From Thalassospiraceae bacterium LMO-SO8 (GTDB taxonomy: Bacteria; Pseudomonadota; Alphaproteobacteria; Rhodospirillales; Casp-alpha2), in the NCBI GenBank assembly GCA_031655335.1, contig CP134226.1, positions 558,001 to 622,000 on the forward strand: 64,000 nt of DNA, given 5' to 3'. Both the position numbers and the translations under genes were made by a program. Shown one piece after another: positions 2,663 through 19,531 of the stretch (the first letter of the stretch is position 1; every line of letters starts with the position of its first letter). The notes beneath the pieces are model-generated. The model was not told where the DNA came from and did no database searches. It saw only the letters and a program-made list of their open reading frames with translations.

Positions 2663-2754
<92 letters not shown>

Positions 2755-2902: not shown

Positions 2903-4144
2903 ATGCCCCGCCAGATCCACCGTCTCGATGCAATGACCGTAAAGCACCTAAAGGCACGCGGTCTGCACGCAGACGGTGGCGGGCTTTATCTCCAAATCAG
3001 CCGGTTTGACACAAAATCCTGGATCTTCCGTTTCACGCTGAACGGCAATGCTAGACAGATGGGTTTGGGTCCATTGCACACGGTGCCGCTATCAGAGGCG
3101 CGCCAGGCGGCCGAGGAATGCCGAAAACTGCTCCGAACCGGCACCGACCCGATTGATCATCGGAAAACCGAACGCGCCCGCCACGGGCTCGAAGTCGCAA
3201 AGGTGATGACCTTTAAAGAGTGCGCGACGGCATATCTGCGTTCTCACGGTGCCGCTTGGTCGAACATCAAACATTCGGCTCAGTGGAAAAGCACCCTTGA
3301 GGCGTACGTTTATCCCTCGTTCGGTGTCCTCCCGGTCCAAGACATCGATACCGGGCTCGTGCTGAAGGTCTTGGAGCCGATCTGGACTTCAAAGACAGAA
3401 ACCGCCAGCCGCATACGCGGCCGAATAGAATCGATCTTGGATTGGGCGAAAGCGCGCGGATATCGCGAGGGCGAGAACCCTGCCCGCTGGCGAGGACACC
3501 TGGACAAGCTGCTGCCAGCAAAAAACAAGATCAGCAAAGTCACTCATCATGCCGCATTACCGTACACCGAGATCGGAGCGTTCGTATCCGAGCTCAAAAA
3601 TCACGATGCCATTTCCGCACGGGGTCTTGAGTTCCTGATTTTGACCGCAGCCCGGACGGGTGAGGTTATCGGGGCAACATGGGACGAGATCGATTTTGCT
3701 CACAAAGTTTGGACGATCCCGGAAGAACGCATGAAAGCAGGCAATGAACACCGCGTGCCCATTTCCGAGCGCAGCATCAAAATCCTAATTGAGATGCAGG
3801 AGACCAAAGTCTCTGATTTCATTTTTCCGGGTGCCAAGAAGAACAAACCGCTCTCGAACATGGCATTCCTGCAATTAATGAAGCGGATGGGGCGCGGTGA
3901 CCTCACGGCACATGGATTCCGCTCCACATTCCGGGACTGGACTGCCGAGCGAACCAACTACCCTCGGGAAGTCGCTGAGATGGCCCTCGCCCACACCGTT
4001 AGCGACAAGGTTGAGGCGGCTTATCGCCGCGGCGACATGTTCGATAAGCGACGCCGGCTGATGGACGAATGGGCAAGCTTCTGCCGAAATTCGTCTACGG
4101 ACAGCTATGGGAAAGTCACACCTATTCGGGAGAACCTAAAATGA
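2903..4144 (+). CDS. int: Tyrosine recombinase/integrase of the tRNA-Ser island
   Basis: This 413-residue protein has the three-part plan of P4-type integrases: an N-terminal arm-binding domain (DUF4102-like, about residues 5-85, with DGGGLYLQI), a SAM-like core-binding domain (about 100-190) and a C-terminal catalytic domain. The catalytic residues can be read: Arg251 in TAARTGEV, His347 and Arg350 in TAHGFRSTFRDW, His373 in LAHTVSDKV and Tyr384 in AAYRRGDMF. It would catalyse integration and excision at the 3' end of tRNA-Ser. Its stop overlaps the next start (ATGA), suggesting translational coupling with the downstream hypothetical gene. Confidence 0.95.
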   Translation: MPRQIHRLDAMTVKHLKARGLHADGGGLYLQISRFDTKSWIFRFTLNGNARQMGLGPLHTVPLSEARQAAEECRKLLRTGTDPIDHRKTERARHGLEVAKVMTFKECATAYLRSHGAAWSNIKHSAQWKSTLEAYVYPSFGVLPVQDIDTGLVLKVLEPIWTSKTETASRIRGRIESILDWAKARGYREGENPARWRGHLDKLLPAKNKISKVTHHAALPYTEIGAFVSELKNHDAISARGLEFLILTAARTGEVIGATWDEIDFAHKVWTIPEERMKAGNEHRVPISERSIKILIEMQETKVSDFIFPGAKKNKPLSNMAFLQLMKRMGRGDLTAHGFRSTFRDWTAERTNYPREVAEMALAHTVSDKVEAAYRRGDMFDKRRRLMDEWASFCRNSSTDSYGKVTPIRENLK

Positions 4145-4824
4145 GGCCGGAAGAACGCCAGATTAGGTTTTGCCGCTATCCCGCGATTGATCAACATCTT
4201 CCGTCCATTCTGGCCTGCTTTAATGGCTTAAGTTTTTTTAAATTCGCCAGAAGAGGGTTCTATCAACGCCTCGGATTTATTTACGACGGTCACGTTTATT
4301 TTCATGAGCTGGTTTCTGGAAGTGGGCCGGACGGGATGAAATATCCTTCCGTCAAGAAGGCGAAAGCCTTCATTGAGGCAACACGTAACCAGTTATCAAA
4401 GAGGATCGCATGGATTGACGATAATCACAGATACGTTGGCGAGGTAACGTTCCCGGAGACCGGAAAAACGATCAGAAGTACGTTTCCTTTGCCGCCGCCA
4501 AACCTCGTTGAATTACGCAAGAAACTTGTTGAGGCAAAAGCGGCAGCTGATGCGGCCGAGCCTTCCATCACGGGCAGGATAAAAACCGGCCCTAATCCCG
4601 ACGTTATTCAACGCCTAGTCGATCAGCTGCAATCACTCTATGAGGATTTCGCAGAGACAAAAGCTACGGCTTTATCGGTTGGATCAGATGGGCATCCATC
4701 CCCAACCGAATTCCAACGGTTTGTGAGAAGTTGCTTCGTCGCGTTCGGCGCCTACATTCCGGACACACTAGAAGAGACGGTCCATAAGAAGCTCGATCGC
4801 TCCAAATCTAAATTTCTGGAGTGA
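4141..4824 (+). CDS. Hypothetical protein coupled to the integrase
   Basis: I do not recognise this 227-residue protein. The chosen ATG overlaps the integrase stop codon as ATGA. The N-terminal half is rich in aromatic residues (ACFNGLSFFKFARRGFYQ, then FIYDGHVYFHELV). The middle has a Lys/Ala-rich probable helix (ELRKKLVEAKAAADAAE), and the C-terminal half looks helical. No signal peptide, membrane segment or catalytic motif was seen. Its coupling to int suggests a role in element maintenance, but that is inference. Confidence 0.7.
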   Translation: MRPEERQIRFCRYPAIDQHLPSILACFNGLSFFKFARRGFYQRLGFIYDGHVYFHELVSGSGPDGMKYPSVKKAKAFIEATRNQLSKRIAWIDDNHRYVGEVTFPETGKTIRSTFPLPPPNLVELRKKLVEAKAAADAAEPSITGRIKTGPNPDVIQRLVDQLQSLYEDFAETKATALSVGSDGHPSPTEFQRFVRSCFVAFGAYIPDTLEETVHKKLDRSKSKFLE

Positions 4825-4870
4825 CAGGGCTTAAATAGGCGGCAAATCACACCTATTCCCGCCTCCTGAC

Positions 4871-4900
4871 ATTCCGTCAATGTTCGTCAAAATCCGTCGT
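4871..4900 (+). repeat. Three 10-bp phased repeats upstream of the excisionase gene
   Basis: ATTCCGTCAA, TGTTCGTCAA and AATCCGTCGT follow each other without a gap, giving a CGTC core every 10 bp, about one helical turn. They end 31 bp before the start of the excisionase-like gene. They may be binding sites for that protein (autoregulation or DNA bending) or iterons. Confidence 0.55.
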
Positions 4901-4931
4901 TGCGCACTGACGCGCCAGCCGGAGAACAATT

Positions 4932-5141
4932 ATGACGAACCAAAATCACCCAACCACAATCTCGCCCCGAGTTAATTGGCGGGTTAGCGATTTTTGCGCC
5001 GCCCATGGCATCTGCCGCACCACCTTTTACGAGGCAGTAAAACGCGGCGAGATCAAGACGTTCAAAGTCGGCCGCCGGACATTAATTGCCGACACCGAGG
5101 CCCGTGCATGGCAGGCCAATCAGGAAGAAGACGGGGAGTAA
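4932..5141 (+). CDS. Excisionase/AlpA-like helix-turn-helix protein
   Basis: The 69-residue protein has a MerR-like winged-helix start, WRVSDFCAAHGICRTTFYEA, followed by VKRGEIKTFKVGRRTLIADT, the pattern of the helix_turn_helix_17/excisionase family. Such proteins bind the att arms or the integrase promoter and favour excision. It lies two genes from the integrase and follows three phased 10-bp repeats that may be its targets. A GGAG sequence about 9 nt upstream (CCGGAGAACAATT before ATG) supports the start. Confidence 0.8.
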   Translation: MTNQNHPTTISPRVNWRVSDFCAAHGICRTTFYEAVKRGEIKTFKVGRRTLIADTEARAWQANQEEDGE

Positions 5142-5149
5142 TCCAAACA

Positions 5150-5242
5150 ATGTGCATTTTGAAGGTGCTGAATGCCTCGCTCGACCCTCTCAACAAGCGT
5201 GGCTTTTCCTCTTCGCGACGACATGAAACAGCACAACAATGA
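5150..5242 (+). CDS. Possible 30-residue leader ORF
   Basis: A short frame starting MCILKVLNASLDPLNKRG opens 8 nt after the excisionase stop, with GGGGAG about 10 nt before its ATG. Its TGA overlaps the ATG of the next gene as ATGA. It may simply carry ribosomes to the downstream start. No similarity is recognised and it could be chance. Confidence 0.3.
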   Translation: MCILKVLNASLDPLNKRGFSSSRRHETAQQ

Positions 5243-6123
5243 GCATCCAGTGGATTAACTATGTGCTCGACCATTCGGAATCGAAGGGTTCAGCGCGTTT
5301 GGTGCTTATTATTATTGCTGAACACGCAAACATATTCGGGATCGCATGGCCCTCAATCAACCGTATCGCAGAGAAAGCAAACATCGACCGCACCAACGTG
5401 ATTCGACATATCAAAAATCTCAAAAAATTAGGCGAACTTACTGTTGTCGGCAGAGACAGGAGCGGCACCAACAAATTCCAATTACTCCTAGGCCAATCTC
5501 CCACCCGTCCAGATCATATTTCACCATCACATGGTGACAAAAACACGCCGGTATCGGAATGCGAAATCGCAAACCCACTAGGTGCGATTTCGCATCAACA
5601 GAAGTGCGGAACCGCACCCCAAACCTTCAATGAACCCCCATTAGAACCATTAAGCATAGTCGACAATGGGGTGCCGGCTGAAACGCCATCCGAACCGGAA
5701 ATCGCCTTTATGTCGTGGAACTCCATGGCAAAACGAGCAGGGCTTTCGACCATTAAGTTAGTCGAAAAAACTCGTACTAAAAAAGCTGAGGAGCTTCTGA
5801 AGAAGATCGGCGGTTTGGACCAATGGAACCTTGCTCTCAACATGGTTGAAACAAATTCGTTTTTGTGCGGCGCTGGGGAAAAGGGCTGGAAGATCACAAT
5901 TGATAAAATGCTCGATCAACACTTCTTTGCCTGCTTGATTGAAGGTGGATACGACCGATTTTCCCCCAACAGACCAGACCAGAGCCAATATACGCCCCGA
6001 CGCGTGTCAATGACCGAAGCGGCGCTTCGAGTTGCAAAACGAGGTTCCGCCTCTAAAAACGTCACACATGGTCGCCCTGAATATGATTTTGCAGAAGCAT
6101 TTTTCAGGAAACTCGCAGAATGA
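5239..6123 (+). CDS. Helix-turn-helix protein, replication-initiator-like
   Basis: Residues about 8-85 form a winged HTH_36-type domain: SARLVLIIIAEHAN, then WPSINRIAEKANIDRTNVIRHIKNLKKLGEL with a basic wing. This fold is common in phage and plasmid replication proteins of the DnaD/replication O type and in element regulators. The C-terminal half (about 150-294) is predicted helical, contains WNLALNMVE and GWKITIDKML, and ends in a basic tail. It has 294 residues and no ATPase motifs. A role in replication or control of the island is inferred from the fold and position. Confidence 0.65.
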   Translation: MSIQWINYVLDHSESKGSARLVLIIIAEHANIFGIAWPSINRIAEKANIDRTNVIRHIKNLKKLGELTVVGRDRSGTNKFQLLLGQSPTRPDHISPSHGDKNTPVSECEIANPLGAISHQQKCGTAPQTFNEPPLEPLSIVDNGVPAETPSEPEIAFMSWNSMAKRAGLSTIKLVEKTRTKKAEELLKKIGGLDQWNLALNMVETNSFLCGAGEKGWKITIDKMLDQHFFACLIEGGYDRFSPNRPDQSQYTPRRVSMTEAALRVAKRGSASKNVTHGRPEYDFAEAFFRKLAE

Positions 6124-6343: not shown

Positions 6344-6644
6344 CCTATGCGCGCACGCATGCGCGCGACGCGCGCATGCGTGTCATGGGGTATTACTCTC
6401 GCTTGCCACTTAATGAAGATTAATTTCAGTTTGGGACTTTAAAGCACTAACTGGGTATCCAAGTCTGATCCGACATAGTAGCAACGACAGCGCCCGGCTA
6501 ACCCACCCGGAATCGCGGCAGGCTTTAGACGAAATTGTTCCCATCATTACGTTTGCTGCGAGCATGTTATTTGAGAATAAAATAACGCGGCATGAGTGTT
6601 TCTCCAGTCCTGAGGCGAGAAAAGGCAAACAGGGGGAAAACGGA
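6344..6644. other. Gap between small HGG-motif gene and hypothetical gene
   Basis: No gene is supported here. The left part holds a 27-bp alternating purine-pyrimidine palindrome (listed separately). The remainder may contain the promoter of the next gene, but no convincing hexamer pair was found. Confidence 0.5.
6355..6381. repeat. 27-bp perfect palindrome of alternating CG/CA steps
   Basis: ACGCATGCGCGCG (6355-6367) is the exact reverse complement of 6369-6381, with a single A between. Purines and pyrimidines alternate through 6347-6382 except at the centre, a pattern prone to Z-DNA or cruciform formation. It lies 12 nt after a stop codon but has no T-tract, so terminator function is uncertain. 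Confidence 0.7.
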
Positions 6645-7460
6645 ATGAAAATTTCGAAGCCAGTCAATAATACACAGATAGAATTCAACAAGCTTTGTGA
6701 TTTGGGTGGGGGGCCTGGTGGGGGGCCGGCACGAACGCGAGTGCAAGAACTTCTGCATGACAGCGGCAAAAAACTGAACGCGCTGGCCAAACGTGACATC
6801 GATGAAAGTCTGACCGAGTTCTCTGACCGGAACCCTTGGCACGTCTGTTATGCGGTCGGCATTTGCTGGGGACACCTCGCACACTACGACTTGGCCTTTG
6901 TTGAAGCTGCGGTAAACCTCCTGGAGAGCTGGAACGACGATGATTTAAAGATCGCACGCGATTTCCATTTAGAACGGGGGCCCGACCCGATTGAACAATC
7001 GCTGGCCGGGGGAAACACGTTGTTCGAGGTGGTCACGATGCCGGGCCAGTTACCCGAAAGCTTGGAGAGATACCGTAGAGCGCAAGACCGTTGGCTCGGC
7101 CGCATTATCTCCAAGGATCGGCCCAAGTACATCGGTAGCTGGAATGCTACGGCCATGTTTATGGTTGCTTTGTTCTCTAATCCCAAACTAGCCGACGAGA
7201 TGATCGAGACGGTAGTCATGCTACCGCCAGGTGGACCGATATACAACGCCCTAAAAATTCTGTACGGCGCTCATTTTCTAAGCAGGGCTCCTGCGGGCAG
7301 TGCGTTGGACGATGGAGATTTCGAGTCAGGGGCAATCTACGAAAACAATGCGCTATTTCTTGACGTGCTCAAAGGGCACAGCGGATGGAACCTTCTCGAC
7401 GTGCACAGCGGATTATACATGCTGGGAACAAGATTCCCGGCTTCAGCCACTTGGTTTTGA
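6645..7460 (+). CDS. Hypothetical island cargo protein with GGGPGGGP motif
   Basis: I do not recognise this 271-residue protein. An AGGGGG box about 9 nt before ATG 6645 decides the start. Near residue 20 there is a GGGPGGGPAR glycine-proline stretch encoded by near-duplicate GGTGGGGGGCC units. The remainder is soluble and rich in Trp and Leu (HVCYAVGICWGHLAHYDLAF, ATAMFMVALF). There are no membrane or nuclease motifs. It stands alone between the replication-type genes and the restriction operon, a cargo position. Confidence 0.6.
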   Translation: MKISKPVNNTQIEFNKLCDLGGGPGGGPARTRVQELLHDSGKKLNALAKRDIDESLTEFSDRNPWHVCYAVGICWGHLAHYDLAFVEAAVNLLESWNDDDLKIARDFHLERGPDPIEQSLAGGNTLFEVVTMPGQLPESLERYRRAQDRWLGRIISKDRPKYIGSWNATAMFMVALFSNPKLADEMIETVVMLPPGGPIYNALKILYGAHFLSRAPAGSALDDGDFESGAIYENNALFLDVLKGHSGWNLLDVHSGLYMLGTRFPASATWF

Positions 7461-7968: not shown

Positions 7969-10900
7969 ATGATTAGTAATTTTGAGTTTCTCGATTATTT
8001 GGATGTAGAACTTGCAAACCTTGGCAAGCTCGCAGAAAGCTATTTCCAGGATGATCCAAGCACGAGTTTGATCAAGCTTCGGCAATTTAGCGAGCGGCTC
8101 ACTAAACGGCACGCGGCCCAGATGGGCATTGAGATTCAGGACATCGATACACAGGCCGATCTGCTTCGCAAAATGAAGTACGAACGTGCTGCACCAGATC
8201 GCGTCTTGGATGTTCTGCATCACGTCAGAAAGCTCGGAAATGCTGCCGTACATGAAGGCCGCGGTGATCATCGTGAAGCCTTGGCATGCCTCAAGATGGC
8301 GGTTCAGCTCGGCGTTTGGCATGTACGGGCTACGACCGCCCAGCGAAAATTTTCACCCGGTCCTTTCTTGCCACCCAAAGCCCCAGATACTTCTGGAGCC
8401 GACCTGCAGGCCGAACTTGAGAGGCTCAGAGCTGAGCGTAACGACGCGCTTACAGCGGTTCAAAAGGCCGAGGAGGAAAGACAAATAGCTCTCCTCGCCG
8501 CGGAGACAGCAGAGGAGCGCCATAGGCGGGAAATCGAAGAACGACAAACTTGGGAAGCACTCGCGCAAGATGCGGATCGACAACTCCAAGAGCTTTCCGA
8601 ACAGGCCAGCCACCAGTCATCGGCGGAGCGCATTGCGTTCGCCCAAGCAGTCGAGGAGGCGGCTGGGGCCGTTGTCCTCGACGAGCAATCCACACGTGCC
8701 TTGATCGATCAGCAGCTTCGGGATCGGGGCTGGGAAGCGGACACCAGCAAAATTAAGTCTAGCATGGGAGTTCGGCCCGTGAAGGGGCGTAACTTGGCAA
8801 TTGCCGAATGGCCGACAAAGTCAGGCCCAGCAGATTACGCACTTTTTGTTGGAGAAAAATGCGTGGGTATCGTGGAGGCCAAAAGGTATCAAAAAAATAT
8901 TTCTGCCGCCATTGATCAAGCCGAGCGTTATTCCAAGGGATTTGAATGGGAGCAGAATAAGACGGCGTGGGACAATGAATATTTTGTGCCGTTTGTTTTC
9001 GCCACAAATGGCAGGCCATATTTAAAACAAGTGGAAACAGAAAGCGGCATTTGGTTCCGTGATGTTCGCTTGGCCAATAATCTCCGCCGCGCACTCATGG
9101 GATGGTTCACCCCTGATGAATTGGTTTCCCTATCAGAGGTCGAGAAAGAGAAGGCCCAGACTGCGCTCGAGACCCGAAGCTTCGACTTTGGCTTTCAGCT
9201 TCGGCCCTATCAAAAGGAAGCGATCCAAGCAGTCGAGAAAACTCTTGTTACCGAAAAGCGGGAAATGCTCATCGCGATGGCAACCGGCACCGGCAAGACA
9301 AAGCTCGCCATCGCGATGCTGTACCGGCTGCTCTCTACTAAACGGTTCCGTCGAATTTGCTTCGTCGTTGATCGCTCGGCACTCGGAACACAGACCAGTG
9401 ACGAATTCATGAGCACGGCGATTGAGGGGCCAAAGACCTTTGGCCAGATCTTTGGGATCAAGGGCCTTACGGATATCAAACCGGACTCCGAAACCCGTGT
9501 CCATATATGCACAATCCAAGGGTTGGTGAAGCGAGTTCTGTATAACTCTGATCCTGCAGACGTCCCGCCCATTGGGCAGTACGACCTAATGGTAATCGAT
9601 GAGTGTCACAGAGGATACTTGCTGGACCGTGAGATGTCCGATGCGGAGCTAAGCTTTCGGGGCCAGGAGGACTATATTTCCAAGTACCGTAGGGTCCTGG
9701 AACACTTCGACGCGGTCAAGATCGGCCTGACCGCGACGCCCGCGCTGCACACAGCACAGATCTTTGGGGATCCAATCTACACCTACTCTTATCGAGAGGC
9801 CGTAGTTGACGGTTGGCTAATCGACCACGAACCTCCAATCCGATTTCAAACGGCACTCAGCAAAGCTGGGATCGTCTTTGAAGCCGGCGAGGACGTAGAG
9901 GTGATGGACACCAAAACCGGCGAGATCGAGAACGTGATTGCGCCCGATGAACTAGAGTTCCAGGTCGAGTCGTTTAACCGAAAGGTCATCACTCAACCCT
10001 TCAACCAAGTTGTAGCCGAAGAGCTAGCCAGACACATCGACCCCAGCCTGGAGGGTAAGACACTAGTTTTTGCTGCCACGGATACTCACGCAGATATTGT
10101 CGTTCACGAACTGAAAAAAGCATTCGCCGCGCAGTATGGTTCAATCGAGGATGCCGCTATCCGGAAGATCACTGGCAGCGTCGATAACGTTGGCAAACTA
10201 ATCCGGTCTTTTCGCAACGATGCCTTTCCACAGATCGCTGTCACGGTGGACTTGCTGACGACTGGCATTGACGTGCCGAAAATCACCAACTTGGTCTTCA
10301 TTCGGCGCGTAAACAGCCGAATTCTTTACGAGCAAATGCTCGGACGAGCCACCCGCCGCTGCGATGAAATCGGCAAAGAGGTGTTCCGCATTTTCGATGC
10401 AGTAGACCTCTATGCTTCTCTTCAAAGCCTCACGCAGATGAAACCTGTTGCCAGCGATCCGAAGCTAACTTTCGAGCAATTATTCGACGAATTTGCGAAC
10501 GTTACAGAAGCGGATCAGCGCGCGCTTGTGCGCGATCAAATTCTAACCAAATTGCACCGCAGATTACGCAAGTTGCCCAGCAAGGTGGCGGATGCAGTCC
10601 AAGACCTCACTGGCGAAACCGTTGAGGAGCTGCGCGATCGCCTTAAGAACCATACCCCCGAGCAAGCTGTAGCCTTTGCCAAGAAATTCGGCGAGCTGGG
10701 AAAAATTCTGGATTGGAACCCCGACGGATCTGGCCCAAACCTGATTCCGATTTCTCCCCACCATGACAGCATGCACGCCGTCACAACCGGCTATGGCAAC
10801 TATGAGAAGCCTGAGGATTTTCTCGACACGTTCACTTCCTTCATAAAGAACAATCAAAATCGGATTGCCGCACTTTCGGTCGTGGTCCAACGCCCACGTG

Positions 10901-11313
10901 AACTGACGCGAGCGCAGTTGCGGAGCCTGCGGCTAGAACTTGATAAGATGGGCTTCTCTGAGACCAACCTGCGCCGCGCTTGGAACGATGCCTCTAACGA
11001 AGACATAGCGGCCTCCATCATTGGCTTCATCCGTCAGGCTGCGTTGGGCGACCCTTTGATCCCCTTTGAGACCCGTGTCGAAACTGCCACCAAATCCATC
11101 TTGGCCAAAGCCAAATGGACAGAGCCGCAGAAGACCTGGCTCCGCCGCATCGCCGAGCAGATCACTAAGGAAATCGTGGTAGACCGCAATAGTATCGATC
11201 AAGGTACATTCGCGGCTCAGGGGGGTTTTAACCGCCTGAACCGAGTGTTTAATGGTCAACTCGAGACCATTCTCAGTGATTTCAACGAAGAACTCTGGAA
11301 AGCGAGCGCATGA
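7969..11313 (+). CDS. hsdR: Type I restriction enzyme, R (motor/nuclease) subunit, EcoEI type
   Basis: The 1114-residue protein has in order: a DUF4145-like N-terminal domain (1-125), a coiled coil (about 150-220), an HSDR_N nuclease domain with ADYALF then VEAK near residue 302 (PD-(D/E)xK), a superfamily 2 helicase with Walker A ATGTGKT (about 438-444), DECH (about 544) and TATP motifs, and an EcoEI R C-terminal domain. It translocates DNA and cleaves it when the HsdM/HsdS complex finds unmethylated sites. Its stop overlaps the hsdM start (ATGA). All visible catalytic motifs look intact. Confidence 0.95.
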   Translation: MISNFEFLDYLDVELANLGKLAESYFQDDPSTSLIKLRQFSERLTKRHAAQMGIEIQDIDTQADLLRKMKYERAAPDRVLDVLHHVRKLGNAAVHEGRGDHREALACLKMAVQLGVWHVRATTAQRKFSPGPFLPPKAPDTSGADLQAELERLRAERNDALTAVQKAEEERQIALLAAETAEERHRREIEERQTWEALAQDADRQLQELSEQASHQSSAERIAFAQAVEEAAGAVVLDEQSTRALIDQQLRDRGWEADTSKIKSSMGVRPVKGRNLAIAEWPTKSGPADYALFVGEKCVGIVEAKRYQKNISAAIDQAERYSKGFEWEQNKTAWDNEYFVPFVFATNGRPYLKQVETESGIWFRDVRLANNLRRALMGWFTPDELVSLSEVEKEKAQTALETRSFDFGFQLRPYQKEAIQAVEKTLVTEKREMLIAMATGTGKTKLAIAMLYRLLSTKRFRRICFVVDRSALGTQTSDEFMSTAIEGPKTFGQIFGIKGLTDIKPDSETRVHICTIQGLVKRVLYNSDPADVPPIGQYDLMVIDECHRGYLLDREMSDAELSFRGQEDYISKYRRVLEHFDAVKIGLTATPALHTAQIFGDPIYTYSYREAVVDGWLIDHEPPIRFQTALSKAGIVFEAGEDVEVMDTKTGEIENVIAPDELEFQVESFNRKVITQPFNQVVAEELARHIDPSLEGKTLVFAATDTHADIVVHELKKAFAAQYGSIEDAAIRKITGSVDNVGKLIRSFRNDAFPQIAVTVDLLTTGIDVPKITNLVFIRRVNSRILYEQMLGRATRRCDEIGKEVFRIFDAVDLYASLQSLTQMKPVASDPKLTFEQLFDEFANVTEADQRALVRDQILTKLHRRLRKLPSKVADAVQDLTGETVEELRDRLKNHTPEQAVAFAKKFGELGKILDWNPDGSGPNLIPISPHHDSMHAVTTGYGNYEKPEDFLDTFTSFIKNNQNRIAALSVVVQRPRELTRAQLRSLRLELDKMGFSETNLRRAWNDASNEDIAASIIGFIRQAALGDPLIPFETRVETATKSILAKAKWTEPQKTWLRRIAEQITKEIVVDRNSIDQGTFAAQGGFNRLNRVFNGQLETILSDFNEELWKASA

Positions 11314-12785
11314 ACCCGAATACCGCCGATATCGTCGCCAAGCTTTGGCGCGAATGCAAAACGCTCCAATCCGCTGGCGTGTCCTATTCGAACTACGTCA
11401 ACGAACTAACGTTCCTGCTTTTTTTGAAAATGCTTGAAGAAACCAAGCAGGAAGGTCGCCTGCCCAATGGACATTCGTGGCGGAAGCTGGCCAACACCGA
11501 GGGCGGCGACCAGTTACAATATTACAAAGAGATGCTGCTGGAGTTAGGCAACCCTGAGAAAACTAACGACCCAGTGACGTTGGCGATTTTCACCGATGCC
11601 ATGACGCATCTGCGCCTCCCCAAAGACCTCAAGACGCTGACGACGAACATAGACAAGCTCGACTGGTTTACGGCGCGCGAAGATGGGTTGGGTGATCTTT
11701 ACGAAGGCTTGTTAGAAAAAACCACTTCGGCCACCAAGTCCAAGGCTGGGCAGTACTTCACACCAAGAGCACTGATTGACTGCATTATCCGCCTCGTTAA
11801 ACCCCAACCGGGAGAGGTTATTCAAGACCCGGCCGCGGGCACTGGTGGATTTCTGATCGCTGCGGATCGCTACATAAAGGATGCAACCGACGATTTGTTC
11901 AAGCTGTCGGAGGCAAAAGCACATTTCCAGCGCCGCCAGGCATTTGTCGGTCACGAATGGGTACCAGATACTCACCGCTTATGTGTGATGAACATGCTAC
12001 TCCACGGGATCGAAAGCCTCGTTGGATGCGAAGACAGTTGCGCCCCCCAGGGAGAGGCCATTGGCAAGGCCGAGGTAATCCTCACGAACCCGCCTTTTAA
12101 TAAAATGTCGGGGAATGTGAACCGCCCCGATTTCACAATAACGGCGGGCGAGCGCGTGGGGCCAATGCCCTTCCTCGAACACGCTGTTCGTAACCTGAAG
12201 AAGGGCGGGCGCTGCGCCATTGTCATGCCTGACAATATTCTGTTCGGCGAAGGTACGGGAACCGAACTTCGTCGCTTTCTAATGGTGAATTGCAATTTAC
12301 ACACCATCCTGCGCCTACCCACGGGCATCTTCTATGCCCAAGGGGTCAAAACGAATGTGCTGTTCTTCTCTCGAGTGACGAACAAGGTTTACCCTGATGA
12401 TCATAAGGAACAAGCGACGGAAGCTGTCTGGTTCTACGATCTGCGCACCAACATGCCGTCATTTGGCAAGACTAACGCTCTGAACGTAGAACACTTTTCA
12501 GACTTTGAGGCTGCCTTTGGTTCAGATCCCTTGGGCGGTTCTGAGCGAGTGGATACGGGCGAGTCCGGCCGCTGGCGCTGTTTGACGCGCGACCAGATTG
12601 CCGCGCGAGGCGATAACCTAGACTGGACATGGCTGCGCGATGAAAGCGGTGACCCTGAAGATGAAATGACCGAGCCCGACGAGCTCGCGGCTGCGATCAT
12701 GGGCCATCTTCGCGCCGCACTCGATGAGATTGAGGCGTTGAGTGAAGAGCTGGAAGACACTCCTCAACCGGAGGCAATTAGATGA
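11310..12785 (+). CDS. hsdM: Type I DNA N6-adenine methyltransferase subunit
   Basis: This 491-residue protein has an N-terminal helical HsdM_N domain (1 to about 130). The N6-methyltransferase domain follows, with QYFTPRALID, the SAM-binding motif DPAAGTGGF (about 173-181) and the catalytic NPPF motif (about 260-263). It methylates adenine in the site chosen by HsdS and protects the host DNA. It overlaps hsdR and hsdS by 4 nt at each end, so the three genes are translationally coupled. The acidic C-terminus (DEMTEPDELAAAIM, then ALSEELEDTPQPE) is helical. Confidence 0.96.
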   Translation: MNPNTADIVAKLWRECKTLQSAGVSYSNYVNELTFLLFLKMLEETKQEGRLPNGHSWRKLANTEGGDQLQYYKEMLLELGNPEKTNDPVTLAIFTDAMTHLRLPKDLKTLTTNIDKLDWFTAREDGLGDLYEGLLEKTTSATKSKAGQYFTPRALIDCIIRLVKPQPGEVIQDPAAGTGGFLIAADRYIKDATDDLFKLSEAKAHFQRRQAFVGHEWVPDTHRLCVMNMLLHGIESLVGCEDSCAPQGEAIGKAEVILTNPPFNKMSGNVNRPDFTITAGERVGPMPFLEHAVRNLKKGGRCAIVMPDNILFGEGTGTELRRFLMVNCNLHTILRLPTGIFYAQGVKTNVLFFSRVTNKVYPDDHKEQATEAVWFYDLRTNMPSFGKTNALNVEHFSDFEAAFGSDPLGGSERVDTGESGRWRCLTRDQIAARGDNLDWTWLRDESGDPEDEMTEPDELAAAIMGHLRAALDEIEALSEELEDTPQPEAIR

Positions 12786-14293
12786 GCGGGCTTCCGAAGG
12801 GATGGGTAGAGGCCTCTATTCTAGATACAGTTGCGGATTACGAGACAACTGACCCCCGAAGAACGCCCGACCAGTCGTTCCTCTATGTCGACATCGGGGC
12901 GATAGATAATTCAGTTCAGAAAATTACTGCTCCAAAGGAGTTTCTTGGGCGAGAGGCACCGTCTCGAGCACGTCGGGTCATAAAGACCAACGATGTCTTG
13001 TTCTCGACAGTCCGCACCTATTTAAAAAACGTCGCTCAAGTTCCAGAAGAACTCGACAATCAGCTAACGTCGACAGGCATAAGCGTTCTACGTGCGAACG
13101 ATGCGATTGAACCAGGTTATCTCTTCCGGTGGGTCGGCTCACCGGGTTTCATTGACGAAATCTCACAAGCACAAGACGGCACGATGTACCCTGCTGTAAG
13201 GGATGATGACGTTTTGAATGGCCCGATTTCTCTTCCTCCACTCCCCGAGCAATTGAGGATCGTTAAGAAGCTCGAAACCCTCAGCGGCTACACTACCAAC
13301 GCCCGCGCCCACCTGACCGCCATCGCAAGACTGACTGAGCGGTATAAGAACGCGGCTCTAGATGCTCGGCTTCCATCTCCGAACACGACCTTAGACAGCC
13401 GCTTGGTCTCGACTTTCTACGGGCCGCGCTTCTCAAAAGAAGCCTACGTGCAAGTAGGTGGCGTACCAACAATTCGTACAACTGATTTTTCAGACGATGG
13501 CACGGCGACGACTGATCTAGCCCCCCGAGTCGAAGTCAGCGACAAAGACCTAGAGAAATGGAAACTGCATGGCGGCGACATTCTCGTCACCAGAACAGGC
13601 TCAATCGGGAAGTGCGCATTGTTCGAGGATGACGATGCCGTTGCGCTACCAAGCGCTTACCTGATCAGAGTGCGTGTGGACACTTCGGTATTATTACCTC
13701 GTTTTGCATTCTTATATTTTGTGTCTCCTAGCGGACAAAAGCATTTAGGCGTCTCTACGCAAGCTGTTGCTCAACCAAACATCAACGCTGCCGCCATTCG
13801 TTCGTTACCAATTGCAATTGTACCCATCGACCAGCAACGTGAGATTATCCGCCGGATCGAAACCGACTTCGCCAAAATTGACCGCCTCGTTACAGAGTCC
13901 GAGAAGGCCCTGAAACTCACCGACAGACTGGATCAACGAATCCTCGCGAAGGCTTTCTCGGGCGAACTCGTCCCCCAAGACCCCAACGATGAACCAGCAA
14001 GCGAGCTTCTTGCACGCATTCGCGAAGCTCGCGCAGACGCGCCTAGAAAGTCGCGTCAGAGACGGACGAAAGTAGATCCCATGAAGACAAATCCCAAAGA
14101 GCTCTTGTTGGCTGACAGCGCAGAATGGCCCAAGAACGGCCTGCCTTTCGAAGAGATTGCCAAACGGGTCATTTTGCCCCATGACGATTTACGCGATGCT
14201 CTGTTTGATCTTTTGGGCGGAGCAAAGCCAAAGCTGGAGCAAGTATTCAACAAGGACGAGGCTCGCATGCGCCTTCGAAGGGTCACGCAATGA
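12782..14293 (+). CDS. hsdS: Type I restriction specificity subunit with extra C-terminal domain
   Basis: Two target-recognition domains (about residues 1-155 and 200-365) alternate with helical spacers containing LPPLPEQLRIVKKLE and PIDQQREIIRRIE. The second spacer ends with AKAFSGELVPQDPNDEPASE, where most HsdS proteins stop soon after. Here about 84 more residues (420-503) follow: a basic linker, then a winged-helix-like segment with LPFEEIAKRVILPHDDLRDA and KDEARMRLRRV. The start overlaps the hsdM stop (ATGA) and the end overlaps the ATPase gene the same way. The tail is discussed as a finding. Confidence 0.93.
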   Translation: MSGLPKGWVEASILDTVADYETTDPRRTPDQSFLYVDIGAIDNSVQKITAPKEFLGREAPSRARRVIKTNDVLFSTVRTYLKNVAQVPEELDNQLTSTGISVLRANDAIEPGYLFRWVGSPGFIDEISQAQDGTMYPAVRDDDVLNGPISLPPLPEQLRIVKKLETLSGYTTNARAHLTAIARLTERYKNAALDARLPSPNTTLDSRLVSTFYGPRFSKEAYVQVGGVPTIRTTDFSDDGTATTDLAPRVEVSDKDLEKWKLHGGDILVTRTGSIGKCALFEDDDAVALPSAYLIRVRVDTSVLLPRFAFLYFVSPSGQKHLGVSTQAVAQPNINAAAIRSLPIAIVPIDQQREIIRRIETDFAKIDRLVTESEKALKLTDRLDQRILAKAFSGELVPQDPNDEPASELLARIREARADAPRKSRQRRTKVDPMKTNPKELLLADSAEWPKNGLPFEEIAKRVILPHDDLRDALFDLLGGAKPKLEQVFNKDEARMRLRRVTQ

Positions 14294-15891
14294 GACTCCG
14301 GGCCCTCAAGATCGAGAAGTCTGCGGCTGGGGGCGGTCTATTTGACGGTGCAAAAATCTGGTTCGGCCGGGAAATGGACGGCAAAACGAATGAACCGCTT
14401 GCGCCTTTGTGCCTCATTGGCCCGAACGGATCGGGCAAATCTCAGTTTTTGCAGCTGATCGCCGAGATATTTCAAGCAGCCTGGCACGCACACGCGCCAA
14501 ACGAGGAACGGAAAAGCGCGAACGCAGAAGTCCTTTTCGACCTGACATACATGATTTCTCCCGATGGAAAAGATAACGCAGAGACGGTCCGACTTGTAAG
14601 GACACTTAAGGGAAAAAAACCAGGCCCAATTGAGCTCCACCTCGGCGAAGATGAAGTGATCAAGTCCTCCTCTAAAAAATTTGGGCAATACCTACCATCG
14701 ATCGTGATCGGCTACACCTCCGGCGATAATGAAACGCTTAGTTTACCATTCCTCGCTAGCCGAAGCGGATATGCCGACGATGTCGCTCGCGCAGCTCTGA
14801 GTGATAGTGGCGAGAGCGCCGTACCAGACAACCGACTGATGCTGATCGACTACGGAACCAACCTCGAAGTTCTGTTTTCGAACCTAATACTTGGTTCGGA
14901 GCATGTTCGAGGCGAGCTACTTCGCCATGCGCGACTGGGAGACCTCGCGTCATGCCGATGCGTTGTGCGCCTGGCGCATTCGGCTGTTCCCAAGGCACCC
15001 AAAACGCGCGCGGCCAAGTCGAAACGAAAAGGCATACAACTGACTGAAGAGCTCGAAGCCATCATCGACCGGCTAAAACGCACGGCCACATGTTGGCACA
15101 TTGACGAAAAGTCGGAGACCTACACGTTTGATTTCTTCATTACCAAAGCAACCCGCGACGCGTTTTCCCATTTTTGGGACGGAGCTTTTTCGCTTTACAG
15201 ATCGTTGCACAAGCTTGCCCTACTGAACGATCTCGCGATCCCACGCGCGGCACGCCACCGGCTGGAAAAGGCGGTCAAGGAAAGGCGGTTTGCATCGAGA
15301 CTGCCGGAGCCACAGCAAGAAGACATGGTTTTCGGGTTCGAAGAAGTGCGGTTTTGGCCGGAGGGCAATCGTGCAGAAGCAGTCGACTACGTTTCACTTT
15401 CAGACGGAGAGCACCAACAGGCCTTGATCCTCGGCACGTATGCCATGGTCACGGATACAAACGCCATTTTTCTGCTCGATGAGCCGGAGTCACATTTCAA
15501 TCCAAAATGGCGCGTGAAGTTCGTCCGGCGTTTGATGGATATGACGGGCAATCGTGGCAACCAAGAAGTCTTGCTGACGACGCATGCCCCGTTTGTTCCA
15601 TCGGACATGCCACGCGAGCAGGTCATGATTTTTTCGCGGAACGAACAGACCGGTAAAGTCGAAGTGGCAGAACCAAAGATAGAGACGTTTGGAACCGCTT
15701 TCGATCGCATTCTCGAAATGTGTTTCGACATTCGCCCCCCAAATTCGCAGATCGCAGAGGAAGAGATCGAGCGATTGTTAAAGTCAAAAAATTTGGAGGA
15801 GGTAGAAGCAGGCTTCAAAGAGCTGGGCCCATCTACAGGCAAGGCTCTCCTTGCCGACCATCTGCGCAAACTGAAGAACCAGCCTGTCTAA
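14290..15891 (+). CDS. Restriction-system-associated AAA/ABC-type ATPase (PtuA-like)
   Basis: This 533-residue protein has Walker A IGPNGSGKS (about 43-51), an ABC-signature-like SLSDGEHQQ, Walker B AIFLLDEPESHF (about 390-402) and an H-loop LLTTHAPF. This is the ABC/SMC/OLD-like layout of PtuA in Septu and of the ATPase in some retron systems. It overlaps hsdS by ATGA and the HNH gene by TAATG, so it is made with the restriction enzyme. The family is known beside restriction systems (restriction system-associated AAA family ATPase). No TOPRIM nuclease domain is seen, so cleavage is probably the neighbour's job. Confidence 0.88.
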   Translation: MRLRALKIEKSAAGGGLFDGAKIWFGREMDGKTNEPLAPLCLIGPNGSGKSQFLQLIAEIFQAAWHAHAPNEERKSANAEVLFDLTYMISPDGKDNAETVRLVRTLKGKKPGPIELHLGEDEVIKSSSKKFGQYLPSIVIGYTSGDNETLSLPFLASRSGYADDVARAALSDSGESAVPDNRLMLIDYGTNLEVLFSNLILGSEHVRGELLRHARLGDLASCRCVVRLAHSAVPKAPKTRAAKSKRKGIQLTEELEAIIDRLKRTATCWHIDEKSETYTFDFFITKATRDAFSHFWDGAFSLYRSLHKLALLNDLAIPRAARHRLEKAVKERRFASRLPEPQQEDMVFGFEEVRFWPEGNRAEAVDYVSLSDGEHQQALILGTYAMVTDTNAIFLLDEPESHFNPKWRVKFVRRLMDMTGNRGNQEVLLTTHAPFVPSDMPREQVMIFSRNEQTGKVEVAEPKIETFGTAFDRILEMCFDIRPPNSQIAEEEIERLLKSKNLEEVEAGFKELGPSTGKALLADHLRKLKNQPV

Positions 15892-16973
15892 TGCTATTTT
15901 CATACCCAGCTAATGCGTTGGCATCGAACTGGCTGAACTCAACAGTCATTGATGTATTGATCGCTGGGATGGATGCTATTGATGCTGGAGGCGCGCCCGT
16001 AGAATGGCCGACGTGCTTGCCAAATGCACGACGAACAGTTCTCAGGCGGCGAACCGGCCTAAGACGAAAACTTGAAGAGTTCTGGGAGTTATACGCAGAG
16101 CTCAATGATCAAGAAAAAGCGACTGTGCGTGAGGCAATTGCGCGCCAGACGGATCTACCAGGCATTTATTCGAACCATACCCCTTGTCCATCCTTGTCAG
16201 GCTTGCCATTGAACATCCGCCCGAAGGTTCGAAAACTATTTGATTACTTATACGATCAGTTGGGTGAAATCAAAGAAGGCGAGGAGTGCCTTAGAGACAT
16301 TCAGTACAGGGCCATATACCTCAGCGGAATTAGAATATGCCCGTTTTGCGGTCTCAATTACTTCAGAGCGCCGAACGCGCCCCGACATGCGCTCGACCAT
16401 TTGTTGGACAAGCCTCGGTATCCCTTCTCAGCAGCCGACCTTCGCAATCTTCCCCCGACCTGCCATGAATGCAATTCAACCTACAAACACACCACAGACA
16501 TTATTCACAAAGCCGATGGATCAAGACGACGATGCTCAGACCCATACTCTGGTCCTGTATTCTCGATAAGCTTGGCAGCCAGTGAGTTCTTTTCAGGCAA
16601 CGAGATTGGCGGCTGGAGACTGCCCCGCTGGGAAGTCGAACTTGTCGGCCCAGGTAACGAACAAGCCGAGACTTGGGATACCGTGTATCAAATAAAAACG
16701 CGATACTGCCGTGATATATTGGACGCGGATTTTCTCTCGTGGATCCAACATTTTTCAAATTGGTACAGTCGTAAATTCGGAAAGGGGACATCATCGGCAC
16801 AGGTTGCTGATCGCCTGCCGCGGTATATTGATTCAGTCATTCAAGACGGTTTCGCAGATCGCGCTTTTTTAAAAGCCGAAGCATTTCGATTTGTGCACGA
16901 ATCTTGTGATGCCCCAGGCCTAGGTGAAGACGTTCGCGAGTGGCTATGGAACTTCGTAGAGTATGCCACTTAG
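15891..16973 (+). CDS. HNH nuclease partner of the ATPase (PtuB-like)
   Basis: The start ATG overlaps the ATPase stop (TAATG), giving 360 residues. A zinc-ribbon HNH core is visible: CPFCG (150-154), ALDHLLDK with the first catalytic His near 170, then LRNLPPTCHECNSTYK with Cys191 and Cys194. The N-terminal 140 residues and C-terminal 150 residues are helical and of unknown fold. ATPase-plus-HNH pairs are the hallmark of Septu (PtuA/PtuB). It is the last gene of the five-gene operon. A homing role is unlikely given the tight coupling. Confidence 0.85.
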   Translation: MLFSYPANALASNWLNSTVIDVLIAGMDAIDAGGAPVEWPTCLPNARRTVLRRRTGLRRKLEEFWELYAELNDQEKATVREAIARQTDLPGIYSNHTPCPSLSGLPLNIRPKVRKLFDYLYDQLGEIKEGEECLRDIQYRAIYLSGIRICPFCGLNYFRAPNAPRHALDHLLDKPRYPFSAADLRNLPPTCHECNSTYKHTTDIIHKADGSRRRCSDPYSGPVFSISLAASEFFSGNEIGGWRLPRWEVELVGPGNEQAETWDTVYQIKTRYCRDILDADFLSWIQHFSNWYSRKFGKGTSSAQVADRLPRYIDSVIQDGFADRAFLKAEAFRFVHESCDAPGLGEDVREWLWNFVEYAT

Positions 16974-17162: not shown

Positions 17163-17178
17163 CTCCCTCTCCGCCATT
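17163..17178 (+). repeat. Right attachment-site core (attR)
   Basis: CTCCCTCTCCGCCATT repeats the tRNA-Ser end at 2739-2754 exactly. It marks the far end of the island. Beyond it the sequence returns to high-GC chromosomal genes. Confidence 0.85.
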
Positions 17179-17246: not shown

Positions 17247-18188
17247 TTATGGGTTCGCGGTTTCGTCCACGGGCAGCGGTTGCGGGCCCCGGACGGCGCG
17301 CCAGAACGGAATGACGTTGGCGTTGTAGTCCTTGTCGCCCCGCCCCTTCAGTTCCTCATGCAACCGGCGCAGGTTGTGATAGGGCACGCCCGGATAGATG
17401 TGATGGGCGGTGTGGAAGCGCAGGCCGAGCGGCTGCAGAAGCGCCGCCAGGGGGGCCTCCACCGTGAAGCTGTCGAGCACATGGTCCCGTTTGTCGGTTT
17501 GCGCGACATGCCCGATCATGCGGTGTTCAAAGGGAATCCGCATGGTCCCCGCCATCCAGCCGCCGACCAGGATGGCGTAATAGATCGGCAGCCATTGCAG
17601 CGCCGTCAGACAAAACACAGCGAAAATGACAAGCGAGTAGCGGCTCAGCCAGGTGATTTCCTTGCGGTAGCGTTCCTCGACATCGCTGCCCATGGTGAAG
17701 CCGTGCCGCCGGAGCACGCGTTCCAACCCTTCTTCCGCGTTCGCCCCCAGGCTGGCCGTCGTCGCCAGGAACAGGTTCAGGAACGGCATCAGGAACGGCG
17801 CGATGAACACGACGAAGATCATCAGGGCGTGATTGGTGCGCAGCGGCAGATACTGCGGGTCGTCCTTGGTCCCGAACACGCCCAGGGAATGATGAGTCAG
17901 GTGCGGCTTATAAAACCGCGATGCGGGCAGCAGGATGACGGCGCCGACCGTCAGGTTCCACAGCAGGGCAAAGCGTCTCATCTTCCTGTCCCCCTGGCGG
18001 TGGGTGATCTCGTGCGCGAAGCAGGCGCCCCGATACAGGGACAAACTGCCGAGAATCATGGGCAGGACACGCATCCAGCCGTCCGTTTCGAGGGCCCAAA
18101 TGAAACAGGCCGCGAACACCGCGAAGGACGCCAGGAAATCCGCGTAATAGATCGCCATATCGGCATCGTAGTAGGATTTGTCGATCAT
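17247..18188 (-). CDS. Membrane fatty acid desaturase
   Basis: The 313-residue integral membrane protein has the three His boxes of di-iron desaturases: HEITH (H59, H63), HLTHH (H96, H99, H100) and HTAHH (H259, H262, H263) followed by IYPGVPYHNL. Four or more hydrophobic segments surround them. It would introduce a double bond (or hydroxyl) into an acyl chain in the inner membrane. It is divergent from the cyclopropane synthase gene, which uses unsaturated acyl chains as substrate, so the two fit one pathway. The exact position specificity cannot be read. Confidence 0.85.
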   Translation of the reverse strand: MIDKSYYDADMAIYYADFLASFAVFAACFIWALETDGWMRVLPMILGSLSLYRGACFAHEITHRQGDRKMRRFALLWNLTVGAVILLPASRFYKPHLTHHSLGVFGTKDDPQYLPLRTNHALMIFVVFIAPFLMPFLNLFLATTASLGANAEEGLERVLRRHGFTMGSDVEERYRKEITWLSRYSLVIFAVFCLTALQWLPIYYAILVGGWMAGTMRIPFEHRMIGHVAQTDKRDHVLDSFTVEAPLAALLQPLGLRFHTAHHIYPGVPYHNLRRLHEELKGRGDKDYNANVIPFWRAVRGPQPLPVDETANP

Positions 18189-18343
18189 GCCGGGCCCCGC
18201 CTATCCTAGCCCTTCGTTGAATAAATGATGGGGCATCGGAATGCAATCGGCCCCCCGCCGCCCCTCGCGTCCGATTTCGTCCTTCACAACTCCTTGATAT
18301 CCAACTTTAATGCACGCCACCATTGGGGGCAGGAGGGGGAATT

Positions 18344-19531
18344 ATGAAGAAGACGATCCGCGACATCGCGCATGCCATACAGCGTGCCCAACCCGAGGCA
18401 AGTTTCACGGTCCGCTTTTGGGACGGAGAGACGATCGAAATCGGCGACTCCCCGGCATTCGTGCTGTGGTTCAAGGAAAAGCGGGCACTTTCCCGCACGC
18501 TTGCCGACGCCTTCATGGGCTTTGGCGAATCCTACATGGCCGGCGACATCGAGGTTGAAGGCGACCTGCAGGAGCTTTTTCGGCTCAGCTGGTCCGTCGA
18601 CTTCGCCAACAATCCCATATCGCTGGGCCTGAAGGTGCGCATGGCCGTGGCCTATATCCTGAACCAGAACACATTCACCCGCGCACGCAAGAACATTTCC
18701 CACCATTACGACATCGGCAACGAGTTCTACGAACTCCTGCTGGGCCCGACCATGGCCTATACCTGCGCCTACTACCACACGCCGGAAGACACCATCGACC
18801 AGGCGCAAATCAACAAATTCGACCACATCTGCCGCAAGGTGATGCTCGCCCCCGGCGACCACATCGCCGACCTGGGCTGCGGCTGGGGCGGTCTTTTGAT
18901 CCACGCCGCCAAGCACTACGGCGTGACCGGAGTCGGCGTTTCCTTGTCACGAGAACAGGTCGATTTCGCCAATCGACGGATCGCCGCAGCGGGCCTGACG
19001 GACAAGGTGGAGGTCCAATTCCGCGACTACCGGGAGATCGAAGGGACCTACGACAAGCTGGTCACGGTGGGGATGATGGAGCATGTGGGCTGGCGCTTCA
19101 TCCCGGGTTGTTTCAAGAAGATCAGCGAGGTCCTCAAGCCCGGCGGCCTGGGCTTGGTCCATACCATCGGCAACGACACGCCCCACCATAACGACCCTTG
19201 GACCGAAAAATACCTGTTCCCCGGTTCGCGGGTCCCGACCTTGACCCAGCTTGTCGAGAACGCGGCACAGGCCGGCATGAACGTGATCGACGTGGAGAAC
19301 CTTCGCCTGCACTATCCGCCGACGATCAACGCCTGGCTCGATTCCTTCAATCGGAACGAGGATCGCATCCGCGAGATGTTCGATGAGACCTTCGTGCGCA
19401 TGTACCGACTGTATATGGCCGTATCCGCCGTTTCGTTCACGCACGGCGACAATCGACTGTTCCACGTCGTGTTCACGAACGGCCTGGCCAACGACCTGCC
19501 CCTGACCCGCGGACACCTCTACCGCGACTGA
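18344..19531 (+). CDS. cfa: Cyclopropane-fatty-acyl-phospholipid synthase
   Basis: An AGGAGGGGG box before ATG 18344 fixes the start (395 residues). The SAM motif is visible as IADLGCGWGGLLIHAA, followed by VGVSLSREQ; both are diagnostic of CFA synthases, as is the upstream HHYDIGNEFYELLLGPTMAY. The enzyme moves a methylene group from SAM to a cis double bond of membrane phospholipid acyl chains, at the inner-membrane face. It starts the plus-strand run of lipid genes and lies 19 nt before the glycosyltransferase gene. Confidence 0.95.
   Translation: MKKTIRDIAHAIQRAQPEASFTVRFWDGETIEIGDSPAFVLWFKEKRALSRTLADAFMGFGESYMAGDIEVEGDLQELFRLSWSVDFANNPISLGLKVRMAVAYILNQNTFTRARKNISHHYDIGNEFYELLLGPTMAYTCAYYHTPEDTIDQAQINKFDHICRKVMLAPGDHIADLGCGWGGLLIHAAKHYGVTGVGVSLSREQVDFANRRIAAAGLTDKVEVQFRDYREIEGTYDKLVTVGMMEHVGWRFIPGCFKKISEVLKPGGLGLVHTIGNDTPHHNDPWTEKYLFPGSRVPTLTQLVENAAQAGMNVIDVENLRLHYPPTINAWLDSFNRNEDRIREMFDETFVRMYRLYMAVSAVSFTHGDNRLFHVVFTNGLANDLPLTRGHLYRD

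Follow-up and report, generated by a model that had tools for sequence, protein, structure and literature searches.

What does an ATPase paired with an HNH-type protein do at the end of a type I restriction-modification (RM) operon? The question is raised by Thalassospiraceae bacterium LMO-SO8, in which the window analysed here (64,000 nucleotides, positions 558,001 to 622,000 of contig CP134226.1) carries five genes on the forward strand at 7969-16973: hsdR, hsdM, hsdS, an ATPase gene and an HNH gene. A preliminary description had seen in them a complete type I RM system joined to a Septu-like (PtuA/PtuB) pair, and had suggested that the pair senses DNA ends or stalled HsdR complexes. On balance, we favour a different reading, namely that the ATPase and the HNH protein are a second, or the sole, effector arm, tethered to HsdMS through a C-terminal tail of HsdS. 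The coupling of the pair to HsdS is well supported by sequence comparison, and its effector role is what we infer from it.

The RM half of the preliminary description was borne out, as all three subunits are present and full length. The gene hsdR (7969..11313, +) encodes an EcoKI-like restriction subunit, which matches NF008521 with 1546 bits over profile positions 4-1122 of 1123 and carries the Pfam families DUF4145 (at its N-terminus), HSDR_N, ResIII and EcoEI_R_C. It is followed by hsdM (11310..12785, +), an N6-adenine methylase gene (PF02384, N6_Mtase, 220 bits; motifs DPAAGTGGF and NPPF), and by hsdS (12782..14293, +), whose product matches S subunits and has 503 aa including a C-terminal add-on. 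By sequence, R-M-S is thus a complete EcoKI-like type I RM system. The junction letters confirm the five overlapping genes, with ATGA overlaps at R/M, M/S and S/ATPase and TAATG at ATPase/HNH; a fourth ATGA, also listed in the preliminary description, has no place among only four junctions.

If the pair were an ordinary Septu, that is, an independent PtuAB-like defence merely travelling in a type I operon, it should also be found away from hsdS. We scanned genome contigs with an alignment of the ATPase and analysed the best 80 of 292 loci, which span many phyla by their record titles. An hsdS gene or a remnant of it lay directly upstream of the ATPase gene in all loci with upstream sequence (78/78; L078 and L080 begin inside the ATPase), and 54 of these 78 had the same 4-nt hsdS/ATPase overlap. 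The 78 include imperfect HsdS: two frames in L024, short or cut versions near contig edges in L075 and L094, a stretch of 144 aa in L089 and, in L088, which has no hsdM, a remnant of only 99 aa that holds the tail. The HNH gene came next after the ATPase, within 16 nt, in 74 of the 80 loci (in two frames in L042 and L101). Among the six loci without it, L060 ends at a contig edge, and the other five, all Larkinella (L061, L063, L064, L066, L068), read M-S-ATPase, with neither HNH nor hsdR. The ATPases of these five are without their last ~40 residues, while a sixth Larkinella (L099) has the HNH gene; this gives a hint that the last ~40 residues of the ATPase may contact the HNH protein. Plasmids gave the same picture for hsdS. 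Two ATPase searches matched nine plasmid records, and the eight examined (Vibrio vulnificus H6 was left out) all carried HsdM and, ahead of the ATPase, an S gene, which in L176 is broken; the HNH protein downstream was of the window's type in L173-L176 and PtuB-like in L177-L180, and HsdR was adjacent in three (L173, L176, L180). The HsdM motif NPPF was kept in 68/68 unbroken HsdM. Since hsdS or its remnant is upstream in 78/78 loci, with the 4-nt overlap in 54, the association is not due to chance, and comparison across these genomes shows HsdS, ATPase and HNH as an inherited unit. The chance co-location that the preliminary description had allowed for thus failed its test, as the pair was not independent of the hsd genes in the 78 loci or in the plasmid loci (8/8). 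Separately, hsdM and hsdS stand an additional 0.8-2 kb apart in L023, L032, L034, L044 and L173, and the insert in L173 includes a GIY-YIG nuclease gene.

HsdR proved to be the optional part. Searching flanking sequence by tblastn with all detected HsdR, we found none in 52 of the 80 loci, one in the operon in 25 and one in a separate second system in three. Restricting the count to the 58 loci flanked by 4 kb or more on each side (well-flanked loci) gave 34, 22 and two, respectively, so that the arrangement without HsdR is the commoner one among the relatives seen. A motif scan of open reading frames of at least 450 aa in the 52 HsdR-less loci yielded one further large helicase-like protein, in L089. 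HsdM, on the other hand, was present in 33 of the 34 HsdR-less well-flanked loci. By contrast with these counts, 54 of the 64 loci gathered with the window HsdM as bait contained an HsdR. On a quick maximum-likelihood tree of 84 ATPases, the HsdR label changed 12 times, at least nine of them on well-supported branches; 16 short-flank rows were unlabelled, loci with a separate hsdR were labelled HsdR-less, and several long branches meet in this tree. We also searched for HsdR genome-wide in 37 genomes, those of the 34 HsdR-less well-flanked loci and three with a separate hsdR. No EcoKI-type HsdR (NF008521) scored above cut-off in any of the 37, whereas the operon HsdR of the L035 genome, the positive control, was recovered with 1316 bits. 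HsdR of the TIGR00348 type gave no match at 1e-30 in 12 of the 37, and 11 had neither type at 1e-30; these 11 include chromosomes titled complete, those of Pseudomonas fluorescens FW300-N2E3 and Aliirhizobium terrae (hsdM broken in the latter). Because hsdS or its remnant is kept in 78/78 loci while hsdR is absent from 34/58, the constant partner of the ATPase is HsdS, not hsdRMS. Of the five-gene order, then, hsdS-ATPase-HNH is conserved (78/78 and 74/80) and hsdR is not, and sensing of HsdR complexes or HsdR-made ends is not supported as the general role of the pair.

The same counts bear on a PrrC-like guard, in which the type I complex keeps the pair silent, and phage inhibition or disassembly of the complex unleashes a suicide nuclease. 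PrrC is a single-chain anticodon nuclease. Like the window's pair, it brings an ATPase-containing nuclease into a type I RM operon (PMC12707154, PMC11555353; papers cited by such numbers are cited from excerpts). Its gene lies within a type IC locus, and inhibition of the EcoPrrI enzyme by phage T4 Stp activates the nuclease (PMC12707154), a precedent for a guard; PtuAB of retron-Eco7, moreover, degrades tRNA-Tyr (PMC11555353), and the HsdS tail would be a natural tether. Unlike PrrC, the window has two proteins with an HNH, an HsdS tail and relatives that frequently have no HsdR. In the 34 of 58 loci without HsdR, only a methylase would be left to guard, and the operons would then be without restriction. 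We therefore regard a PrrC-like guard as unlikely; the form of it that remains, in which HsdMS itself is guarded, is possible. No PrrC model was among the NCBIfam families and the best 25 of 101 PADLOC families listed for the ATPase, or among the families listed for the HNH protein by NCBIfam and PADLOC.

What, then, sets apart an HsdS that stands beside this ATPase? Such HsdS mostly extend 107-141 residues past the conserved last-helix motif, a feature that the preliminary description had missed, and Bacteroidota loci L092, L096, L099, L101 and L102 have a longer variant of the tail. EcoKI HsdS (2y7c, 464 aa) is alignable only up to residue 421 of the 503 of the window HsdS. An AlphaFold2 model of the latter, built with 46 sequences (predicted local distance difference test, pLDDT, 91.6), matches solved HsdS; it has a linker at ~420-437 (pLDDT 60-65), followed by helices at 438-446, 456-462 and 467-479 and strands at 485-490 and 495-500 (pLDDT ~90). 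From this helix-helix-helix-strand-strand order, the tail (residues 438-503; 14093..14290, +) is predicted to be a winged helix on a flexible linker. In a Foldseek search, the HsdS model gave weak matches (E 1 to 5, 63-71 columns) to ScpA-ScpB chains, ArsR, Z-alpha and other winged-helix proteins, which we place on the tail by the length of the matches. Against Pfam, 28 tails were searched; that of the window matched no family, and the others gave stray matches of one to three members. The best match among PDB (Protein Data Bank) sequences was CagD (E 0.0014), and none was accepted as real. In L059 (2980-3290), HsdS is terminated prematurely, and its winged-helix tail is encoded in a second frame that has a separate ATG; this may be a real split, slippage or an assembly error.

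Control HsdS came from 64 loci gathered by HsdM (8 + 56), 60 of which had an HsdS, 55 without an adjacent ATPase and five with one. The tail profile exceeded 10 bits in none of the 55 without ATPase, at most 53 of which are informative (L140 and L148 are truncated at the 3' end, and a few more are fragmentary). In L107-L114, whose HsdM are 53-63% identical to that of the window, HsdS stops at the linker. Among the five controls with an ATPase, a window-type tail is present in L135 (56 bits); the add-on of L118, L121 and L164 is of a different kind, and L115 has none. HsdS is also extended at the canonical TIGR04435 loci L171 and L172, yet the tail profile scores only 6 and 12 bits there. Searched against 398 genomes of the phylum, the profile (A8, 28 rows) matched two, the window's and that of L135, both at ATPase loci. 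In a set of 12 selected ATPase genomes, nine of which had contributed rows to A8, it gave a single match in each of 11. Thus the window-type tail has so far been seen only in HsdS beside this ATPase. As an observation on L135 itself, its ATPase gene lies in two open frames (4330-5930), and HsdS with tail, HNH and HsdM remain.

Covariation of distances was computed over 61 loci (L024, L059 and rows under the length limits were left out). The tail followed the ATPase with r 0.85 (0.72 as a partial correlation on HsdM) and the HNH protein with r 0.84, and HNH and ATPase followed each other with r 0.91; for the HsdS body, the correlation with the ATPase was 0.57, and the partial on HsdM was 0.21. 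In the 24 loci with HsdR in the operon (L036, whose HsdR belongs to another system, was left out), HsdR followed HsdM with r 0.95, versus 0.76 for the tail, 0.73 for the ATPase and 0.69 for the HNH protein, while tail and ATPase reached 0.87. Because the tail tracks ATPase and HNH and HsdR tracks HsdM, the locus seems to consist of two modules, {R, M} and {S tail, ATPase, HNH}, with the joint inside HsdS.

We next turn to the pair itself. The ATPase (14290..15891, +), an OLD/PtuA-like ABC protein, matches TIGR04435, "restriction system-associated AAA family ATPase", with a whole-protein score of 412 bits against a cut-off of 300. A link of this family to restriction systems, stated in the preliminary description, is therefore already named in NCBIfam; the model's name mentions neither an HNH partner, an HsdS tail nor a frequent absence of HsdR, and the window clade is a divergent branch, 31-32% identical to two relatives with scores of 749 and 727 bits. 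The catalytic motifs, Walker A (14419-14442, +), the signature LSDGEHQ (15397-15417, +) and Walker B (15469-15489, +), are conserved among relatives. PADLOC PtuA1 scored 142.7 bits over residues 39-482 of 533, the NCBIfam (retron) PtuA model 46.5 bits (cut-off 500), and solved PtuA chains matched with E 2.6e-13 (retron Ec78 ATPase) and 2.2e-11 (Septu PtuA, 8ee4). No phage record was matched by the ATPase at 1e-15. PDC-M62 was considered as a name for the pair, and so was M01; the PADLOC matches were only partial (M62A 50.7 bits, M62B 49 bits, the latter to the HNH protein), and both names were dropped.

The open reading frame of the HNH gene, taken mechanically, starts at GTG 15720. The start is more likely ATG 15891, within TAATG, as M1 of the resulting protein of 360 aa (15891..16973, +) is kept in at least 90% of 50 aligned sequences. 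In that alignment, C150, C153, D169, H170, N186, C194, N195 and K199 of the HNH-like core (16338-16487, +) are invariant; a re-count in 71 rows found N186 in 69/71 and each of the other seven in 71/71, a conservation that points to catalysis. The protein had no Pfam or NCBIfam match. Against the best PtuB model (PADLOC) it scored 19.7 bits over 57 residues, and what it has in common with PtuB-like proteins is the HNH core only (hhalign probability 4%). Its structure model is confident (pLDDT 95.6) and had no match in the PDB at E <= 0.001; it thus has no relative at the level of the fold.

These results bear on how far the Septu comparison holds. Septu and the retrons Eco7 and Ec78 have, like the window, an OLD/ABC-type ATPase followed by an HNH protein, and for Septu PtuAB the target is DNA (PMC11555353). 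Of the Septu design proposed in the preliminary description, the ATPase is related to PtuA by its matches to PADLOC PtuA1 and to solved PtuA chains but scores far below the NCBIfam PtuA cut-off, and the HNH protein is not a PtuB. Neither is the pair a self-contained two-gene system, given the adjacent hsdS. An independent Septu travelling in a type I operon could draw on the PtuA relationship and on known cases of genes of one defence system embedded in those of another (PMC12255303). Since the HNH is not a PtuB and the pair was not found apart from hsdS or its remnant in the best 80 relatives and eight plasmid loci, where upstream sequence was available, while hsdR is what comes and goes and HsdS has a dedicated tail, filing the pair as Septu was rejected, and we hold independent travel to be improbable. 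As for retron type I-A, no reverse transcriptase family was found among ten island proteins scanned with NCBIfam and Pfam; msr-msd was not searched for. MADS resembles the window in combining a methylase, an S-like subunit and an AAA ATPase. Its NCBIfam models fell far below their cut-offs (MAD2 to HsdM 95 against 720, MAD5 to HsdS 69 against 400, MAD3 to the ATPase 29.9 against 420), and type I models outscored those of PADLOC (mad2 176, mad5 130, mad8 19 bits).

An alternative role for the tail is regulatory. ScpA-ScpB complexes are partners of an ABC ATPase, and ScpA-ScpB chains are among the weak fold matches of the HsdS model. HsdS tail and ATPase might accordingly act on the type I enzyme as regulators of its assembly, of restriction alleviation or of translocation, with the HNH protein as a structural or processing factor, which would fit the near-constant retention of HsdM and HsdS. 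The 34 of 58 loci without HsdR have no such subunit to regulate, however, and the conservation of the HNH residues points to catalysis; a purely regulatory role seems highly improbable.

A parallel lineage was met among the control loci. For the pairs of L121 and L164, matches to the PADLOC Septu models cover the greater part of the proteins (PtuA1 656 and 938 bits, PtuB1 288 and 342 bits); L118, whose ATPase lies in two frames, was grouped with them by position. All three have the order M-S-PtuA-PtuB, without HsdR in the available flanks (for L164, only 2.2 kb beyond hsdM), and each HsdS has its own C-terminal add-on, unlike the window tail. Plasmid loci L177, L178 and L179 are alike; these and L180, which has HsdR, are of the PtuA1/PtuB1 kind with their own HsdS add-on. 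As these pairs sit behind hsdMS, some loci for which PADLOC would probably report Septu are parts of HsdMS operons. One ancestral adaptor for both lineages is not claimed, the hhalign probability between tails of the window type and the PtuA1 type being 0.3%.

Is the tail also made on its own? The window hsdS has an in-frame ATG at residue 434 (14081..14083, +), just before the winged helix, as a possible internal start. An in-frame ATG, GTG or TTG occurs within codons -78 to -64 in 62 of 68 hsdS, and ATG alone in 76%; within the gene body, 13% of stretches of 15 codons contain one. At the aligned position, a start-like codon is present in 44 of 68 rows, TTG making up 5/7 of Leu (16% in these genes) and GTG 4/9 of Val (22%), although related rows are not independent. 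Strong ribosome-binding sites precede the tail codon in some genes, e.g., L049, L067, L081, L121 and L179. Compared with synonymous shuffles, the Shine-Dalgarno signal is modest overall (p = 0.0045, a value flattered by using the best of several candidate codons per gene), with a mean of -3.1 at the internal codon, much weaker than the -6.3 at the hsdS start. The window's own site has no signal, as 70.5% of 200 shuffles were as good. The codon could be an internal start or the scar of a gene fusion, which explains a boundary Met equally well; with a Shine-Dalgarno signal that is modest and absent from the window, we keep the internal start as a side hypothesis. By analogy, some CRISPR systems produce a small subunit from an internal start.

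Under the tethered effector arm that we favour, the HsdS tail would dock the ATPase on the HsdM2S complex. The trigger would be an encounter of HsdMS with DNA whose target sites are unmethylated, or a block of HsdMS by a phage inhibitor. The ABC ATPase would then switch state and release the HNH protein or aim it at nucleic acid, which it would cleave. The substrate would be the incoming DNA or a molecule of the host, for instance tRNA, which retron-Eco7 PtuAB attacks. HsdM methylation would protect the host. Where hsdR is missing, the ATPase/HNH arm would be the sole restriction activity; in the window, it would act beside HsdR. More tentatively, and with more doubt than conviction, we suggest a distinct class of restriction system in which HsdM2S discriminates self from non-self and the HsdS winged helix recruits, as effector, a PtuA-like ATPase together with an HNH protein, in place of the HsdR translocase or alongside it. 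The winged helix would additionally be made as a free subunit of ~70 residues from the internal hsdS start.

Several observations weigh against the tethered effector arm. L115 has ATPase and HNH after a tail-less HsdS, and the A8 tail profile missed the genome of L092. Five of the six Larkinella have neither HNH nor HsdR, and so no recognisable nuclease. As the tail abuts the ATPase gene, their covariation may reflect linkage with recombination inside hsdS and not contact. An HsdR encoded elsewhere could in principle act in trans: among the 37 genomes, TIGR00348-type HsdR scored above cut-off in 20, and five had NF008521-like matches that stayed under the cut-off (best 172-258 bits). Some HsdR-less loci may be decayed, given that the hsdM of L025, L031 and L097 is spread over several frames and that L088 has only a remnant, and many of the relatives' genomes are drafts or metagenome-assembled genomes.

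Among the titles and abstract openings listed by the literature search, none described the HsdS tail or R-less HsdMS-ATPase-HNH operons, nor did either appear in passages of PMC11555353, PMC12707154, PMC12839542, PMC12255303, PMC8565338, PMC12137116 and PMC10853773. As cited in PMC12839542, Krishnan et al. 2020 reported OLD-ABC ATPases that have HNH proteins or nucleases of other kinds as partners in RM-like settings.

The operon lies in a genomic island of ~14.4 kb. Its integration site is a tRNA-Ser(cga) gene (2663..2752, +; ARAGORN), whose 3' end forms an att-like 16-bp direct repeat (2739..2754, +); a second exact copy at 17163..17178 (+) closes the island distally. A tyrosine integrase (2903..4144, +; Pfam Arm-DNA-bind_3, Phage_int_M and Phage_integrase) is followed by an excisionase-like helix-turn-helix (HTH) protein (4932..5141, +), with scores just below cut-off for HTH_17 (26.6 bits, cut-off 27) and TIGR01764 (21.9, cut-off 28.8). 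Between integrase and hsdR there are also an HTH_36 protein (5239-6123) and two proteins (4069-4824 and 6564-7460) that matched nothing in the three libraries used. The G+C content is 0.42-0.46 in the first 3 kb, ~0.50-0.55 from 3 to 17 kb and mostly 0.60-0.69 further downstream, with dips (0.535 near 56 kb). Past the island, open reading frames at 17247-19531 resemble, by eye, a fatty-acid-desaturase-type membrane protein and a cyclopropane-fatty-acid-synthase-like methyltransferase.

If the tethered effector arm is real, the targeting half of a type I RM system can drive a wholly different nuclease module, bridging RM and effectors of the Septu and retron type. Some annotations of "Septu" or of "orphan hsdMS" would then be parts of one system. 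The question of what directs OLD/PtuA-type ATPases to their targets would become testable, with HsdMS, whose kind of DNA target is known and which offers methylation as a readout, as the candidate sensor and a 65-residue domain as the candidate adaptor.

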